A stretch of 34,323 bases of DNA from a virus: positions 1 through 34,323 of the IMG/VR virus record IMGVR_UViG_3300034283_000343, one strand, 5' to 3'. The notes under the pieces were generated by a model that ran no database searches, was not told where the DNA came from, and saw only the letters and a program-made list of their open reading frames with translations. Positions 411-26,841 of the stretch are shown here, in pieces. The translations under genes and the position numbers were made by a program. Numbering within the stretch: the first letter of the stretch is position 1; every line of letters begins with the position of its first letter.

Positions 411-914
411 TTAGTATTTACGGATGCCGTAAAGGGTTGCTGTGCTGTATTGTACAAAAGAACCACTTAATGATGTAAGTGTTATTGAATTAATTGGTGC
501 TGAATTAGCCCAAAGAGATGCTTGAAGCCAAGCATACGCCTGCGTTGCATTTGTTTCTTGAACGCTGTCATTAGAAACTACTTTAGAATTACTAGAGGCA
601 TAGTTTGAAATATAAAAACTACCAGAAGCAAATGATGATGCTGTGTAAGTAGAGTTATTATTCATTCCATAAGTATAAGCACCTCCAGTATTTCCAGTTC
701 CACCAGCCGTGCTACCATCACCATAAATTGCTTTATCTGAATAACCAGAAGAACTTCCATTAAATTTTAAAGTTAAATAATTTGTATTTGCATTAGCCCT
801 TGTTGAATAATTAACTATTAAATCAGTGTAAGTTTGAGGTATATTATTAAAATCAATAGTGGTTGCGCCACCTGAACCTACGGTTACAGTGGTAATAGGA
901 ATATAGTTTGCCAT
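411..914 (-). CDS. fibre-tip-like paralog, class C, copy 3
   Basis: 167 residues and the last gene of the array. Class C hallmarks are VGSGGATTIDF near the N terminus, the ASSFASGS segment, SNYASSNSKV, and ETNATQAYAWL before LWANSAPINSI. It ends TATLYGIRKY. Its ATG overlaps the stop of the preceding gene (TAATG). It is the same type as the genes at 1971-2489 and 3571-4074. The fold looks like an all-beta receptor-binding or decoration domain. Homologs are familiar as hypothetical proteins next to phage tail fibres; biochemical function is unknown. Confidence 0.85.
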   Translation of the reverse strand: MANYIPITTVTVGSGGATTIDFNNIPQTYTDLIVNYSTRANANTNYLTLKFNGSSSGYSDKAIYGDGSTAGGTGNTGGAYTYGMNNNSTYTASSFASGSFYISNYASSNSKVVSNDSVQETNATQAYAWLQASLWANSAPINSITLTSLSGSFVQYSTATLYGIRKY

Positions 915-1396
915 TATGCCGCCTTGATTCCGTATAGAGTAAAGGATGTTCCGCTTGCGTAGGTGGTGCTAGTCATAGTTGCAGTAATGCTAGTGATAGC
1001 AGCAGTGTTACGCCATAGCCCTATGATTGCGTGTAAATAAGCAGATGGAGTACTTGTTCTACATAACTGATTCTTGAAAGTAGTAGTGTTTGCATAGTTA
1101 GGAATCTGTACAACTAAAGTACTGTTAGTATAAAACTCACCAAGCCACATAAATGTAGAAGAAGTTTGCCTATTACTTCCTGGTGTTGTTCCAGAACCGT
1201 AGATTTGAGTAGCAGAATAGTTGGCTCCTGTGTCACCATTGAACTGCATATAAGCAGTATTGTTAGCACTAGCAGAGCCGTTAACTACTAGAACTAAATC
1301 AGTATAAGTGTTAGGAATATTTGAAAAAGTAACTGATGCTGCGGTAGCAGATAGAGTGTTAGTAGCAATAGGTATATAGGTTGATGGCAATGGCAT
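914..1396 (-). CDS. fibre-tip-like paralog, class A, copy 3
   Basis: 160 residues. Class A is marked by YTDLVLV after the IP motif, NYANTTTFK in the middle, and GLWRNTAAITSIT with the Trp-Arg pair near the C terminus. It ends TLYGIKAA. It overlaps its neighbours by one base on both sides (TAATG). Unlike copies 1 and 2, its junction with the preceding B gene is a direct overlap and not the AAGGGG-TAA-NN-ATG arrangement. I infer a virion surface protein attached to, or exchangeable with, the fibre encoded upstream. Confidence 0.85.
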   Translation of the reverse strand: MPLPSTYIPIATNTLSATAASVTFSNIPNTYTDLVLVVNGSASANNTAYMQFNGDTGANYSATQIYGSGTTPGSNRQTSSTFMWLGEFYTNSTLVVQIPNYANTTTFKNQLCRTSTPSAYLHAIIGLWRNTAAITSITATMTSTTYASGTSFTLYGIKAA

Positions 1397-1971
1397 TATG
1401 CACCTGCTCTCTTGATACCATATAGGGCAAAAGATGTGTATTGTTGAAATGTTCCAGTGTTAGGGGTTATAGAAATTGCCGTAACTGCAGCAGTGTTCAT
1501 CCATAAACCCGATACTAATTCAACACCACCCGAACCATTTGAATCTTGTCCTGCTAAACCACGCATAGTTGTGTACTTTGTTGTATCTTTGTAATCAAGA
1601 ATGTCGTATGTTCCAGTAGCAAACATAGAAGCAGTATTAGGAATACCCCAAGAAGCAACTGTATAGATTTGATTTTGAGATGTTAAACCAGCAGCACCAA
1701 CAGTAGAACCATCTGCGCTCAGGCGATGCCGAGCGTAGTTAGCACCAGTGTCAGAGTTAAATGTCCAATACAATCCTGCCAATGAAGAACCTCTAGCAAA
1801 CCATCTAATTTGTAGATGCTCATAGTCTTGCGGGATAGCACTAAAGGTTACAGTGGCTGTAGATGTGGTTAGCGTAGTAGTAGCCAAAGGAATCATTGCG
1901 CCAGGGTCTACATCACCAGGGGCTGTCAGGTTGCCTGACTTAGATTTGTACTTAAGACTGATGGCTCCCAT
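1396..1971 (-). CDS. fibre-tip-like paralog, class B, copy 3
   Basis: 191 residues. Class B proteins carry an extra N-terminal stretch of 25-30 residues, here MGAISLKYKSKSGNLTAPGD, before the shared domain. They then have YEHLQIRWFARGSS, ILDYKDTTKYTTMRGL, QDSNGSG and GLWMNTAAVTAI. It ends ALYGIKRAGA. The extra N-terminal segment is a candidate docking peptide for the fibre or for the A and C partners. TAATG overlap with the upstream class C gene. Confidence 0.85.
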   Translation of the reverse strand: MGAISLKYKSKSGNLTAPGDVDPGAMIPLATTTLTTSTATVTFSAIPQDYEHLQIRWFARGSSLAGLYWTFNSDTGANYARHRLSADGSTVGAAGLTSQNQIYTVASWGIPNTASMFATGTYDILDYKDTTKYTTMRGLAGQDSNGSGGVELVSGLWMNTAAVTAISITPNTGTFQQYTSFALYGIKRAGA

Positions 1972-2489
1972 TATACTTCCGCCTTAATGCCGTAGAGAGT
2001 GACTGTGCTGTACTGCATAATTGGATAACTTGTATTACCTGTGGCAACATTCAGAGATGTAATGGCTGCTGTGCTTGACCATGTACCTGCGTTCAAGGTT
2101 GCGTATGCCGTAGTCGCATTATTTTCGCCAGTCCCATCCATAGAAAAAGACTTGTAATTGCTAGAGGTATAGTTTGGAATATAAACAGTTGCGCTTCCAA
2201 AGGTATTGGCTTGCGTGGCTACATTTCCTTGAAGGTTTAGAATAGCAATTGCTGCGGTAGTTTGTGAATTTGCAGCAGAACCATTGCCTTGAAGTGTTCT
2301 AGTTGTGCTGTTTGTTGCATCACCATTAGGATAAATAACTAAACTTGCATATTCATTTGGTCTATCGCATTTGGCTGAAATTTCTAATTTTAAATCTGTG
2401 TAATTTTGAGGAATAGCAGAAAGCACTATCTCAGTAATGCCTCCAGAACCAACAGTATACGAGGCTAATTTGCTATATGTATATGCCAT
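1971..2489 (-). CDS. fibre-tip-like paralog, class C, copy 2
   Basis: 172 residues. It has VGSGGITEIVLSAIP, YTDLKLEISAKCDRPNEY, ANTFGSATVYIPNYTSSNYK, GENNATTAYATLNAGTW and a C-terminal QYSTVTLYGIKAEV. Of the three class C copies it is closest to the form common in other phage genomes. It starts directly after the stop of the class A gene with no spacer, and ends in a one-base overlap with the class B gene of cassette 3. Confidence 0.85.
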   Translation of the reverse strand: MAYTYSKLASYTVGSGGITEIVLSAIPQNYTDLKLEISAKCDRPNEYASLVIYPNGDATNSTTRTLQGNGSAANSQTTAAIAILNLQGNVATQANTFGSATVYIPNYTSSNYKSFSMDGTGENNATTAYATLNAGTWSSTAAITSLNVATGNTSYPIMQYSTVTLYGIKAEV

Positions 2490-2984
2490 TTAAGCCGCCA
2501 ATATTCCGTAGAGTGTGAATGTGGAACCATCTAAAAAAGTACTAGATGTTGTGTATAATGTTAGTGAATTAATAGCAGCAGTATTGCGCCATAAACCAAC
2601 TAAGGCTGTTGCTTCTGCTGCAGAATTAAAACGAGTAAGCATTGTTTTGTAAGTAGTAGTATTAGAATAATTATTAAAATTAGTTATTCCACTACCCCAA
2701 GTTCCATTTAAAGAACTTCCAGTTACATTTAAAAAAAGATACGAATTTCCTGTACTTCTTGTAGAGTATGCTGCTCCTAAGTAACCAAATACTTCCGTAT
2801 CACTATAGTTTGTTCCAGTATCTGAGTTAATTCGTAAATATATAGGACTAGAACCAGTACCTTTTGCTTGTGATACTAATACTAAATCGGTATAACCACT
2901 GGGAATACTAGAAAATGTTACTGTATCAGAACTACTAGTTAATTTGGTTGTAGCCAATGGTGTGTAAGTCATACCTGCTGCCAT
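2490..2984 (-). CDS. fibre-tip-like paralog, class A, copy 2
   Basis: 164 residues, with YTDLVLVSQAKG, INSDTGTNYSDTEVFG, NYSNTTTYKTML and LVGLWRNTAAINSLTL, ending FTLYGILAA. Its start lies two bases after the TAA of the class B gene. The ribosome binding site AAGGGG is supplied by that gene's last Lys and Gly codons, an arrangement shared with copy 1. Ser/Thr/Gly/Asn-rich beta protein, no signal peptide, consistent with a structural virion component. Confidence 0.85.
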   Translation of the reverse strand: MAAGMTYTPLATTKLTSSSDTVTFSSIPSGYTDLVLVSQAKGTGSSPIYLRINSDTGTNYSDTEVFGYLGAAYSTRSTGNSYLFLNVTGSSLNGTWGSGITNFNNYSNTTTYKTMLTRFNSAAEATALVGLWRNTAAINSLTLYTTSSTFLDGSTFTLYGILAA

Positions 2985-2986
2985 AA

Positions 2987-3571
2987 TTACCCCTTAATTC
3001 CATATAAAGCCCAGTGACTGTTAGCAACAAAATTAGGACCATTTGCTGGAACAATAGTGATGCTATTAATTGCTGTGGTACTCATCCATAAACCTGAACT
3101 AAGACGAACTTGTCCTGTTCCATTGCTGTCGTAACCATTAAGCGAACGAACAGTTTTATATTTAGAAGTGTTAGCATAATCAAGAATATCAATTACTCCA
3201 ACACCAAAAACTCCAGATGTAGATGATGCTGCTGCAACTACTGAACGAGTGTTAAATGTAATAGATGAGCCATCTGAAAATGAACCAGCGGTTGCGCCGT
3301 CACCATACAAAACATGTGCTGCATAGTTGCCAGCACTGTCAGAATTAAATCTAAGTTGAATATTATCTTCTTGATTTGCTCTGGAGGTTCGAGTAAAAAA
3401 TCTAATTTGTAAATGCTGATAGGTGCTAGGTATAGAACTAAACACTACAGTTGAAGTTGTTGTGTAAGGAGTCACGGTAGCAATAGACTCATACGAGCCA
3501 GGCATAATTACCTGATTGCCAACCTGTGTGCTTCTACTAAAGGAACCTGTCTTAAGACTTCTAATAGCCAT
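2987..3571 (-). CDS. fibre-tip-like paralog, class B, copy 2
   Basis: 194 residues. The N-terminal extension (MAIRSLKTGSFSRSTQVGNQ) precedes the core domain. The core shows YQHLQIRFFTRTSR, RFNSDSAGNYAAHVLYGDG, VIDILDYANTSKYKTVRSL, YDSNGTGQVRLSSGLW and SLYG-like WALYGIKG at the end. TAATG overlap with the class C gene of cassette 1. The extension differs in sequence from those of copies 1 and 3 but keeps a basic Ser/Lys/Gly character. Confidence 0.85.
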   Translation of the reverse strand: MAIRSLKTGSFSRSTQVGNQVIMPGSYESIATVTPYTTTSTVVFSSIPSTYQHLQIRFFTRTSRANQEDNIQLRFNSDSAGNYAAHVLYGDGATAGSFSDGSSITFNTRSVVAAASSTSGVFGVGVIDILDYANTSKYKTVRSLNGYDSNGTGQVRLSSGLWMSTTAINSITIVPANGPNFVANSHWALYGIKG

Positions 3572-4074
3572 TATAGGACTCCGTAAAGTGTAAAGGTTGA
3601 GTTGGTGGCAAATAAACCTGAACCAGGAAATACATCTAACCTACTGATTGCAGTTGTCACTGGATAAAGTCCTGCTGTTAATTGCGTTCTTACTGTTGTT
3701 GCATTGTTTTCACTAACTGCCTCAACCAAAACAGATTTAAATTTATTACTTGTGTAATCAGAAAAATAAAATTGATTACTACCAAAAGCATTAGCGGTGT
3801 AACCACTTTCTGGTTGTCTACCACCTGCTATTGCGTTTTGAGTTGTGCCCGCAGTTGATGCAACTGCAGAACCATTACCATTAAATTGTCTAAAACTATA
3901 GTTAGTTGCAGAGTCGTTATTTATTCTGACAGAAAAACCATCTTCGGCTACAGTTCCACGCGGTGAAGCATATAGAATTAAATCAGTGTACCCTTGAGGT
4001 ATTGAAAGAAATGTGACAACTGAAACTGGTGAACTTACAGTTGTATCAGCAATCTCAAATAATTGTAGCGCCAT
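3571..4074 (-). CDS. fibre-tip-like paralog, class C, copy 1
   Basis: 167 residues. Class C traits are weaker in the first strand (TTVSSPVSVVTFLSIP) but clear later: TANAFGSNQFYFSDYTSNKFK, SENNATTVRTQL, and TAGLYPVTTAISRL in place of the usual LW motif. It ends FTLYGVL. It is the most divergent class C copy, since the otherwise conserved Trp is replaced by Tyr. One-base overlaps on both sides. Confidence 0.82.
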   Translation of the reverse strand: MALQLFEIADTTVSSPVSVVTFLSIPQGYTDLILYASPRGTVAEDGFSVRINNDSATNYSFRQFNGNGSAVASTAGTTQNAIAGGRQPESGYTANAFGSNQFYFSDYTSNKFKSVLVEAVSENNATTVRTQLTAGLYPVTTAISRLDVFPGSGLFATNSTFTLYGVL

Positions 4075-4589
4075 TACTTTGCCGCCTCAATCCCGTAAAG
4101 TTTGAATGTGCAGCCCACGCTCATACTGCCACCACTTTTATGAAACACTTTAATTGCATTGATGGCAGTAGTGCTGCGCCAAAGACCTACATACATAATT
4201 GATAAGTTACCAGTAGCAGCAGAACCACTTTTAGATAAAGTTGATTTGTAGGTAGTAGTATTAGCATAATCATTTATGTGAGCAATTGTTGTTGCGTAAT
4301 CACTATTTTGTGTAGGAATATTTCCAATTGCTATAGAAGTAGAACCAGAAGTTCTTCCAGATACAACAGAAGCCCCATCGCCGTACAAATAAGTTTTAGA
4401 GTAATTAGTTGCTGTGTCAGAATTAAACTGAACCTCTAAACCTTCACCATTAGCAGCATTTGAAAGAACGCTAGTTACTAATACTAAGTCAGTGTAGGTT
4501 GCAGGTATAGAACTAAATGTTATAGATGTAGCAGTAGAACTTAAAGTGTTACTGTTAATCAAAGTGTATGTGCCTGTCTTTGCAGCCAT
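4074..4589 (-). CDS. fibre-tip-like paralog, class A, copy 1
   Basis: 171 residues, with ATYTDLVLVTSVLSN, VQFNSDTATNYSKTYLYGDG, NDYANTTTYKSTLSK and VGLWRSTTAINAIKV, ending FKLYGIEAAK. It starts two bases after the class B stop, with the AAGGGG Shine-Dalgarno made from the B gene's last codons. Length and motif order match copies 2 and 3 of the class. Confidence 0.85.
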   Translation of the reverse strand: MAAKTGTYTLINSNTLSSTATSITFSSIPATYTDLVLVTSVLSNAANGEGLEVQFNSDTATNYSKTYLYGDGASVVSGRTSGSTSIAIGNIPTQNSDYATTIAHINDYANTTTYKSTLSKSGSAATGNLSIMYVGLWRSTTAINAIKVFHKSGGSMSVGCTFKLYGIEAAK

Positions 4590-4591
4590 AG

Positions 4592-5185
4592 TTACCCCTT
4601 GATTCCGTATAATGAGATGCGTGTATATTGAGTAAACAAAGTTCCAACGCCAGGTTCAAACTGAATAGATGTAATAGGATTTGTATTCATCCACATACCA
4701 CTGCCAAATTGAAGAATACCACCAATGCCACTAGCACCAGTTCCATTCATATCTTCTCCACTAAGCAAACGAAGTGTTTTATGTTTGTTAATATTTGTAT
4801 AATCTAAAATATCTACTAAAACAACACCAAACTGTTTGCCAGTATTTTCTACATTTGTTCCAATGACTCCTATGTAATTACCATTATCATTTGCACTACC
4901 ACTAGCAGCGGCTGAACCACCATCTCCGTATATAACGTGAGAAGAGTAATTAGTAGCATAATCATTGTTACAACGAATCTCAATAGAATCTCTACAAAAG
5001 GTTGCTCTATTTGACTGAGCAAATATTCTAAGTTGTAAGTGCTTATATGTTTGCGGTATATCCGTAAACGCAATAGTGGAAACCCCGCCAGCACCAACAA
5101 GGGTGCTAGCGATAGGCTCCATAAAGTTATTCTCTAGCGCAAGGCTGATGCCAGTTGCGCCAGACTTTGCACTAGTAATTGACAT
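4592..5185 (-). CDS. fibre-tip-like paralog, class B, copy 1 (first gene of the array)
   Basis: 197 residues and the longest of the nine. The N-terminal extension is MSITSAKSGATGISLALENN. The core has YKHLQLRIFAQSNR, CNNDYATNYSSHVIYGDGGS, LVDILDYTNINKHKTLRLL, EDMNGTG and a slightly longer loop before FGSGMWMNTNPITSI. It ends ISLYGIKG. It overlaps the 108-residue tail gene by one base (TAATG), linking the array to the fibre operon. Confidence 0.85.
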   Translation of the reverse strand: MSITSAKSGATGISLALENNFMEPIASTLVGAGGVSTIAFTDIPQTYKHLQLRIFAQSNRATFCRDSIEIRCNNDYATNYSSHVIYGDGGSAAASGSANDNGNYIGVIGTNVENTGKQFGVVLVDILDYTNINKHKTLRLLSGEDMNGTGASGIGGILQFGSGMWMNTNPITSIQFEPGVGTLFTQYTRISLYGIKG

Positions 5186-24311: not shown

Positions 24312-24631
24312 AACAGTCTATTTGTACAGATGTTTGTACAGTTAGTGAGTAAGGCTCTAAAAAGACTTACGAACTATTTTGCTCTCTATATATACTTAAC
24401 CTGTTCAAACAGTCTAAACGAACAGTTTTTGCTAAACTATTTTTTACATACTATAAAACCGCAGGTCAGATAGTCTGTCTACCCCCCTGTAACTATACTG
24501 ACAGAATATTTTAGGTAGAGATACAATACATATAAAGACAACAGATTAATAAATATGGGGTCAAACATAGACTATAGACTGTTACAGATAGACTGAACAG
24601 TATTGCGAGTTCTGTTTGACTGTAGACTGTC
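24312..24631. repeat. cluster of an 8-nt motif (ACAGTCTA / TAGACTGT) in both orientations
   Basis: AACAGTCTA occurs at 24312-24320 and 24408-24416. Its reverse complement TAGACTGTT occurs at 24575-24583, and TAGACTGTC at 24623-24631. Near-copies such as TAGTCTGTC (about 24469-24477) and ATAGACTGAAC (about 24588-24598) fall between them. Two forward copies lie on the terminase side and two reverse copies on the early-gene side, as expected for binding sites of one regulator or initiator. Confidence 0.6.
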
Positions 24632-24656
24632 TACCTGTCTATCTCTAGGGGGCTAG

Positions 24657-24662
24657 TATAAT
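24657..24662 (+). promoter_or_regulatory. candidate -10 element of the rightward early promoter
   Basis: TATAAT at 24657-24662 is a perfect consensus -10 hexamer. No consensus -35 lies 16-18 bases upstream; a TTGACT at 24616-24621 is too far away. A transcript from here would cross the whole GC-rich non-coding island before the first early gene at 25216. Confidence 0.4.
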
Positions 24663-24690
24663 CTATCTGTAACATTAAATAGATTACTAT

Positions 24691-25215
24691 AGCCTGAGTG
24701 ACTGTATCCCAGACCCGTACCTACTGCTCTGGTCTACACCTGCTCAGCCACCACTCGCGGGCTGAGGCTAAAGCCTCATGCGCTCACAGGTTTCAGTTCG
24801 TCTGCTTCGGCTCGGTCTGCCCGCGCCTCATGCGCCGTGACGCATGGCGAATGTCGCCCGATCTGCCACCGCATCATGCTGTTTCATGAGCGGGTGTGAG
24901 CCCCCGTCCTTGCCATCGTGTAGGGGAAAGACCACCGTTTACTTTGGTATCCCCTATCATGGCGGCTCACTCGCCCTGTGCTGCTCGGCATGTCAGAAGG
25001 CATGTCGCGTCATGACTGCCTAGACGCTTCCTCTATGTGTCGTGGCACGGCAGATGCGCCGCGCAATCTGACAGGAACCTGCTTGGCTTGGCAAATCCGC
25101 CACGCAAAAGACGCGTGTCGGATTAGACCCGCGAGCGGGTGCCAAACCAGCAGAACCCTGTCTGATGCTGCTCTGCTCAGCCGAGCACACAACTACAAAG
25201 AGAAAGCAGGCAATC
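24691..25215 (+). other. GC-rich non-coding island with several hairpins (candidate structured RNA)
   Basis: About 525 bases lack a frame with protein-like composition on either strand. The sequence is much richer in G and C than its surroundings (39 of 60 at 24781-24840). Perfect short stems include TGAGGC-TAAA-GCCTCA (24763-24778), CATGCG/CGCATG (24829-24846), TAGGGG/CCCCTA with inner ACCA/TGGT (24921-24956), ACCCG-CGAG-CGGGT (25127-25140) and TGCTC-AGCC-GAGCA (25174-25187). A GCATGTC direct repeat lies near 24988-25006. It lies just downstream of a TATAAT. It could be a long 5' leader, an independent ncRNA or foreign DNA. Confidence 0.5.
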
Positions 25216-25602
25216 ATGTCACAACATGAAATCTCCTTCGACAAAGCCGAACTGGCACATGTCGAGACTCGCACCGCCAAGAGCGGGAACACCTACGCAA
25301 ACGGTATCCTAATCCTACGCGATGAGAGCGGCAAGTACGAAGCCTCACTCCGTTTCCGCTCATTCAACGCAGTAGATGCGTTGTCTGTGATCGAACGCCA
25401 GTACTTCGCCAAGCAGTCACCTAGCGCAGAGATCGCGGGTAGCGACCTTCACTTCGAAGCAGACGAAAGCACTGAAACCCGCGAACGCATAGTCGCTAAA
25501 GCGACTACTCGCCCACGAGTTAGTGTGGCTGGCTGGTTTAAGACCAGTAAGGTAGGAGAGAAATGGGATACAGTCTTCATGCTAGAGTCTGTATCTATTT
25601 AA
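25216..25602 (+). CDS. putative OB-fold, SSB-like early protein with atypical base composition
   Basis: 128 residues from ATG 25216; the open frame extends upstream, but those residues are not protein-like. The pattern is beta-rich: HVETRTAKSGNTYANGILIL then RDESGKYEASLRFRSF, a short helix (AVDALSVIERQYF), and a C-terminal pair (RPRVSVAGWFKTSKVGEKWD; FMLESVSI). The T-x-x-(S/T/G)G hairpin and the V-x-x-x-G near the end recall single-stranded-DNA-binding OB folds and parallel the protein at 26423-26767. Codons are GC-rich (35 G/C in 25261-25320), unlike later genes. It is followed at once by a strong terminator, so it is its own transcription unit. Confidence 0.6.
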   Translation: MSQHEISFDKAELAHVETRTAKSGNTYANGILILRDESGKYEASLRFRSFNAVDALSVIERQYFAKQSPSAEIAGSDLHFEADESTETRERIVAKATTRPRVSVAGWFKTSKVGEKWDTVFMLESVSI

Positions 25603-25614
25603 TAGATAGATTAA

Positions 25615-25641
25615 AACCCCCTAGAAATAGGGGGTTTTTTT
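25615..25641 (+). terminator. intrinsic terminator
   Basis: AACCCCCTA and TAGGGGGTT form a perfect 9-bp stem around a GAAA tetraloop, overlapping a run of seven T. It ends the transcript of the SSB-like gene 12 bases after its stop codon. Confidence 0.92.
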
Positions 25642-25941: not shown

Positions 25942-26334
25942 ATGAGCGAGTACATATCTAACGGTATAAGTATAACCAACCAATGCTATCACTGTATGCA
26001 ATTAGATAGCAAGTGCGATGAATGCCAGGACTTAGCCGATGCTAGGTCTGCTGAAATAGCACATGATCTAGTAGATGAAGGTAACCTTCAGTATCGCAAG
26101 CAATGGATGATTGTGACAGAACCAAGTAATCATGACTGGACTAACCGTGATGATGAGTTCAAGTTACCTGTAGTTATGTTACAAGATGGTGGTGTACTTG
26201 ATAATGTTTGGGAGTTAGATGATTATGCTCAGTCCCAACGTGAAACTAAGTGTCCTTGGTGTAACTTGCTTACGCCCAAGGCATTCAATGATTGTCAAGA
26301 TTGTGACAAGCCATTGGAAAGCAACGTAAGATAA
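25942..26334 (+). CDS. protein with two double-CxxC zinc modules
   Basis: 130 residues. Residues 15-28 hold CYHC and CDEC. Residues about 104-120 hold CPWC and CQDC, a zinc-ribbon-like end (CPWCNLLTPKAFNDCQDCDK). The middle is acidic with several Trp (WMIVTEPSNHDWTNRDDEF). Such paired knuckles bind nucleic acid or protein partners; no family name can be given. It starts one base after the stop of the 26-residue gene. Confidence 0.7.
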   Translation: MSEYISNGISITNQCYHCMQLDSKCDECQDLADARSAEIAHDLVDEGNLQYRKQWMIVTEPSNHDWTNRDDEFKLPVVMLQDGGVLDNVWELDDYAQSQRETKCPWCNLLTPKAFNDCQDCDKPLESNVR

Positions 26335-26422: not shown

Positions 26423-26767
26423 ATGGAAAACACAGTAACACTTACTGGTAAGTTGAAGAATGTCCGTACTCATACAGGTTCTAAAGGTACTATGGTAACC
26501 GCTTGGTTTGACCAGCGTGAAGTATCTGCCTTTAGTAATGGAGAGGCTGACCGTCAAGTATATGTATGTGGTATTAATGTAGTAGCATTAGATGGTACTA
26601 CTGTAAGTGAGATACTAGGTAGTATCCGAGCAGGACAAGAACAGTCCGAGTTGGTTACTCTTAAAGGTAGATTGGCAACACGATTTGATCGCCGTCAAGA
26701 TATCTCAGAATCAGCACGTCGTGCCCCTCAATTACAGTTAGAAGTATTTGAGGTAGCAGTAAACTAA
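26423..26767 (+). CDS. putative single-stranded-DNA-binding OB-fold protein
   Basis: 114 residues from ATG 26423, with AAGGAGAAACAA upstream. It opens like an SSB (NTVTLTGKLKNVRTHTGSKG, then TMVTAWFDQRE). A variable central part follows (VCGINVVALDGTTVSEILGS), and it closes with strands (LVTLKGRLATRFD; QLQLEVFEVAVN). The TGKLKNVRT start and repeated TxKG patterns are typical of OB folds. Probably coats single-stranded DNA during replication or recombination. The gene stands alone between two long hairpins, so its mRNA may be processed to a separate, stable unit. Confidence 0.65.
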   Translation: MENTVTLTGKLKNVRTHTGSKGTMVTAWFDQREVSAFSNGEADRQVYVCGINVVALDGTTVSEILGSIRAGQEQSELVTLKGRLATRFDRRQDISESARRAPQLQLEVFEVAVN

Positions 26768-26774
26768 TAGTATA

Positions 26775-26811
26775 AAACAGGTGGCTGTTCTAGCGTGACA
26801 GCCACCTGTTT
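26775..26811 (+). terminator. 14-bp stem-loop, terminator-like
   Basis: AAACAGGTGGCTGT (26775-26788) and ACAGCCACCTGTTT (26798-26811) pair perfectly with a 9-nt loop, followed by the T-rich ATTCTATT. It starts 7 bases after the stop codon of the SSB-like gene. The A-rich left end and U-rich right end would also let it work on the opposite strand. Confidence 0.8.
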
Positions 26812-26841
26812 ATTCTATTGAGTAAAACATATCGGATAACA

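Follow-up and report, generated by a model that had tools for sequence, protein, structure and literature searches.

What is the GC-rich, apparently gene-free island at positions 24691-25215 of this viral genome? The window, by which we mean the whole 34,323-nt stretch that was analysed (IMG/VR record IMGVR_UViG_3300034283_000343), had been read in an earlier note as carrying a candidate structured RNA there, a non-coding region of short hairpins just downstream of a TATAAT. The elementary observations behind that reading were accurate. The GC counts were exact (39 of 60 at 24781-24840, 20 of 60 at 24541-24600), and the island has 59.2% GC against 41.9% for the window. Mechanical ORFs of up to 83-90 aa overlap it and nothing points to a protein, as had been said. 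The stems go beyond chance, since 24681-25216 folds with z-scores of -5.5 (+ strand) and -6.3 (- strand) and none of 100 dinucleotide shuffles was as stable. The note recognized no known class, and neither did we: Rfam 15, including GOLLD and ROOL, gave no match at gathering thresholds for the window and 12 related loci, and none credible below them. There are no tRNA genes in the window. The TATAAT was correctly placed at 24657-24662 (+), within the feature described below; a promoter role for it is unsupported, and a consensus scan called no promoter here.

When the window was searched with its own island, an inverted match to 25140-25588 was found (E = 2e-10). The island aligns with the leader, the entire coding sequence (25216-25602, + strand) and part of the terminator-like hairpin of the adjoining gene, so that the feature is an imperfect palindrome of about 1 kb, at about 24639-25638, and the GC-rich island is its 5' side. 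The reverse complement of 24639-25093 is 67% identical to 25140-25630 over 517 alignment columns. In a Smith-Waterman scan the palindrome scored 662 against a window median of 106, and no second palindrome of comparable size was present in the window. The island is thus largely the reverse complement of the downstream gene, and the true feature has about double the reported length. Positions 24691-25215 comprise the 5' arm of the palindrome, its tip and the gene leader. Most pairing partners of the island lie outside it, in the coding sequence, and it is not self-contained. What stands is a large, structured, covarying element of no Rfam class; what falls is the self-contained non-coding RNA. 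The short hairpins reported earlier belong to a gene-length rod, as local alternatives to it, as its side branches or as its tip.

The rod has three parts, all given on the + strand. The 5' arm (24639-25093) is non-coding, has no conserved reading frame and includes most of the reported island; its limits come from the reverse-complement alignment and the palindrome score. The tip (25094-25139) has at least one short hairpin in the minimum-free-energy (MFE) fold, and its sequence differs among relatives. The 3' arm (25140-25630) contains the gene leader, the complete coding sequence and part of the terminator-like hairpin. A side hairpin, TGAGGCTAAAGCCTCA (24763-24778), projects from the 5' arm and roughly faces another, TAGTCGCTAAAGCGACTA (25490-25507), which lies within the coding sequence at the codons V-A-K-A-T. 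Side hairpins occur at the place equivalent to the former in the folds of other clades, and the latter shows compensatory changes in its pairs, at alignment columns 968-974/979-985. We also observed that the rod tip (alignment A6 columns 545-605) is swapped between relatives as short hairpin modules; the window and relative L022, for example, have one type, and L005, L015 and L016 have another.

Relatives of the gene product were collected by IMG/VR searches, from 99% down to about 37% protein identity. The palindrome was found in 50 of 50 sequences with enough upstream DNA, namely the window and 49 IMG/VR loci; L010 (only 238 nt) and the partial L020 and L064 were left out. Because several contigs are near-identical, these represent perhaps 10-15 independent lineages. 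Across the 50 sequences, 43-85% of the coding nucleotides are paired to the upstream arm. Synteny is common to all 20 relatives checked: the terminase gene on the - strand, a gap, the rod with its gene, and a homologue of the gene at 25942, followed in most of them by a homologue of the gene at 26423. Smith-Waterman scans of 18 relatives revealed no second palindrome at their loci. Terminase and capsid of these uncultured phages resemble those of Streptomyces phages. By terminase, the nearest named relatives are ct2KA10 and, more distantly, Streptomyces phage ZooBear, and both lack the gene and the palindrome. A phage database gave no match to the locus DNA or to three family proteins. A scan of GTDB genomes returned a single 33% match in a MAG, without the palindrome, which we did not count as a family member.

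The covariation check that the earlier note had proposed was run on these homologues, and its outcome favours structure. RNAalifold predicted 260 pairs in an 11-sequence alignment, 72 of them with both sides changed and the pair retained. Between the arm and the coding sequence there were 76 double-change cells, a count of sequences and not of events; shuffles averaged 23 (maximum 36). With the partners slid by 1-3 columns the count fell to 2-12, a lenient control because the sequences tested had also served to derive the structure. Third codon positions account for 44 of the 76. Where coding bases differ, 76 cells are compensated, 18 are retained by G-U and 33 are broken. L017 and L019 differ by 21 double changes from one Watson-Crick pair to another. 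The number of pair types, one covariation measure, was not above shuffles (58 against 60.5). Whole rods fold with z-scores of -18 to -33, and arms alone with -1.8 to -8.5. A comparison of own with cross pairing is free of the weakness of deriving structure from the same sequences. The pairing of every 5' arm is far stronger with the gene beside it than with the genes of diverged relatives; in L012, for example, the arm makes 261 pairs with the L012 gene and no more than 88 with any other gene. The upstream regions of L012 and L013 have only a 55-60-nt BLAST match in common with that of the window. The palindrome is almost certainly real, conserved and maintained with compensatory change.

The enclosed gene encodes a 128-aa protein whose frame is conserved in relatives. 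Its dN/dS of 0.06-0.31 (11 pairs) indicates that the protein is under purifying selection. The AlphaFold model of the window protein was poor, and we used the 101-aa homologue L043, modelled from a 28-sequence alignment led by this short homologue. The predicted structure (pLDDT 88.9) has the order β1-β2-β3-α-β4-β5, and the PDB structures most similar to it are SSBs from bacteria and mitochondria, and PriB (Foldseek best E 1.1e-4, TM about 0.65). No SSB sequence-family match was found in Pfam, PHROGs or PDB sequences, and PHROGs gave one weak match of unknown function (L012, E 0.0012). The protein is predicted from this model to be an SSB-like nucleic-acid binder with an OB fold. A second small gene of the block, at 26423-26767 (+), has by eye an SSB-like sequence pattern and no Pfam or PHROG match. 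A strong short palindrome on its 3' side (26766-26819) is probably a terminator. At the other end of the window, nine consecutive genes on the - strand (411-5185, about 160-197 aa) show by eye the recurring motifs IP-x-TYTDL, FNSDTGANYS and LYGIK; they read as a tandem array of diverged paralogues, which perhaps encode tail-tip or receptor-binding proteins.

We then considered what the rod may do. In the predicted rod, the putative ribosome-binding site and start codon (25202-25219, +) are base-paired with the 5' arm. In the window, opening positions -18 to +8 is predicted to cost 17.7 kcal/mol in the full rod and 8.0 kcal/mol without the 5' arm. The same holds in 14 of 14 lineages, with predicted costs of 18-36 kcal/mol in the full + strand rod and 3-18 kcal/mol without the arm; nine other window genes cost 2.9-12.7 kcal/mol. 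By these predicted energies, the upstream sequence sequesters the ribosome site. The base of the rod is formed by a terminator-like hairpin with a T run (25613-25641, +), whose stem is present in most relatives and covaries; a simple search did not find it in L067 and L050. Consensus terminator and promoter scans of this part of the window were not above shuffled expectation, and the terminator-like call therefore rests on conservation. Complementarity beyond this hairpin is not significant in most genomes, as would suit an RNA unit; in some clades it extends a few bases past the T run, which speaks against one. An AT-rich block, CTCTATATATACTTAA..GTTCAAACAG..AAACGAAC (24379-24426, strand not assigned), which lies in the gap that separates the terminase from the rod, is kept in alignments of three otherwise diverged clades. 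It is likely a candidate divergent promoter or operator; the consensus scan lent a promoter role no statistical support.

The architecture is well supported, and from it we infer a function. Selection would act on a single-stranded molecule, and the most likely candidate is a + transcript that covers both arms as far as the terminator-like hairpin. This transcript would fold into an often-interrupted rod, with the ribosome site, the start codon and the larger part of the coding sequence paired to the 5' arm. The full-length RNA would be poorly translated at equilibrium, and protein may be made only before the rod forms, as in nascent RNA, or once it has been opened. Opening could occur by RNA processing or through single-strand binding by the encoded protein itself. 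The rod would then act as a brake on expression, and possibly also protect the RNA. The predicted burial of the ribosome site in all 14 lineages leads us to favour an mRNA locked in a rod. We give control of the enclosed gene by the + strand rod a probability of roughly 0.5, and the acting molecule is probably RNA.

The main rival places the function in DNA, as a single-strand hairpin or duplex cruciform that serves as a replication origin or packaging site near the replication or packaging region, with an SSB-like gene nested in it. The mismatches of the rod are strand-asymmetric. On the + strand they are mostly A.C and C.T, not G.U and A.G, and these read as G.U and G.A on the - strand. The excess of A.C over G.T is seen in most lineages, not all. 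At face value this asymmetry fits the minus strand, and single-stranded DNA would satisfy it as well as RNA. Capped helices on the + strand could give the same pattern, since G.U would count as paired. A test of A.C placement was compatible with either + RNA with capped helices or - strand pairing. As a separate observation, mismatched G is scarce on the + strand of the rods, at about 11% of mismatched bases within the coding part. The location also suits a DNA element, as the locus separates divergent gene blocks and sits at a turn in GC skew, beside the terminase, which is the first gene of the Streptomyces phage ZooBear record; the predicted SSB/PriB-like fold of the protein would fit too. 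However, gene orientation explains the GC-skew turn as well. The outer edge of the palindrome falls mostly at a terminator-like hairpin, and all the lineages tested are predicted to bury the ribosome site, both of which are more natural for RNA. We consider a DNA-level element possible and rather doubtful.

An RNA from the minus strand, antisense to the gene, could instead be the folded functional molecule. The change of A.C and C.T into G.U and G.A on that strand speaks for it, as do the placement of A.C mismatches within long runs and the lower MFE of the - strand, which is predicted to fold more stably than the + strand in most lineages. This advantage in stability is missing in L017, L019, L029-L031 and L028, however. 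The consensus scan supported no candidate promoter on the - strand, and the genes to the right lie on the + strand. A minus-strand RNA is therefore improbable in our estimate.

The palindrome might also have no function at all, being an old inverted gene duplication whose arms stay alike through gene conversion or template switching. The latter is a known generator of compensatory changes (PMC8794818) and a possible source of single compensations here. Such copying should nevertheless yield long perfect tracts, and the rods have short ones. In 11 genomes the longest perfect run is 9-13 bp, whereas neutral-decay simulations of the same genomes, matched for the numbers of mismatches and gaps, gave means of 14-22 bp. 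The runs are shorter than this expectation in 8 of 11 lineages (P ≤ 0.03; the window 0.26, L014 0.08, L028 0.12). About 19% mismatches and 40-66 gaps remain in every lineage. Unpaired positions also coincide in part between lineages: 55 coding positions are shared by the window and L012 against 33 expected and, weakly, 35 by the window and L019 against 27 expected, with no significant coincidence between L012 and L019. Retention of the palindrome in all members would be unexpected absent selection. We regard a passive origin as quite improbable.

An RNA replicon of the viroid, HDV or Obelisk type, taken up by the DNA phage genome or released from it, would share the gross shape of a rod of about 1 kb with one ORF; it is very improbable given the fixed syntenic locus in DNA phage genomes, the predicted β OB fold in place of Oblin and the lack of any Rfam match, ribozymes included. 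Least credible of all is an independent structured non-coding RNA confined to 24691-25215, since the island alone does fold better than shuffles and arms alone reach the z-scores given above, but pairing with the coding arm is far stronger in the whole rods and the covariation runs between arm and coding sequence.

With control by the + strand rod as the preferred reading, we compared the locus with known systems. In the open-access literature that we searched, we found nothing similar to a gene-length hairpin in phages, nor any account of a DNA virus in which a whole gene is kept complementary to an arm upstream of it. A coding sequence held by non-coding pairing along most of its length through wide divergence is likewise absent from Rfam and from the literature searched. 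Tentatively, we propose a new kind of element in which a phage gene forms one arm of a kilobase rod, as RNA or single-stranded DNA, that acts with the encoded OB-fold protein while the coding sequence co-evolves with its non-coding partner along most of its length. Rod and protein might, for example, work jointly as a ribonucleoprotein, or the rod might be an origin that lies within the gene for the protein that binds it. The locus suggests that uncultured phages have a mode of gene control, or a DNA or RNA element, not known before. Ordinary annotation misses such features, since it takes one half for a gene and the other for an empty spacer.

In the MS2 maturation gene, a 5' leader buries the ribosome-binding site. 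The rod gene resembles such leaders in the predicted burial of the site by upstream sequence, and differs in that its leader pairs with most of the coding sequence, beyond the start region. The protein is alike in predicted fold to the OB-fold SSB and PriB proteins of bacteria, mitochondria and phages, with the SSB sequence match absent. GOLLD, ROOL and OLE are large, elaborately folded RNAs, the former two from phages (PMC12286853); unlike in these, the partner arm here is coding and no Rfam match exists. Obelisks and hepatitis delta virus are rod-like RNA replicons of at least about 1 kb with an ORF (PMC13096302, PMC6832723). They share with our locus a rod-like fold of about 1 kb or longer that contains an ORF, whereas the phage rod sits at a fixed DNA locus and encodes an SSB-like protein, not Oblin or delta-antigen; the helical globule of Oblin-1 contrasts with the predicted β1-β2-β3-α-β4-β5 fold. 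Mitochondrial genes of Nematomorpha contain perfect coding palindromes of up to 284 bp, with both arms in one gene (PMC6649704). As in the phages, long inverted repeats over coding sequence are kept there together with protein function; the phage repeat, in contrast, is imperfect, about 1 kb long, non-coding in one arm and found in DNA phages. These mitochondrial coding palindromes and the rod-like RNA replicons are the nearest cases to the rod gene, which offers a natural laboratory for the conflict between coding and structure.
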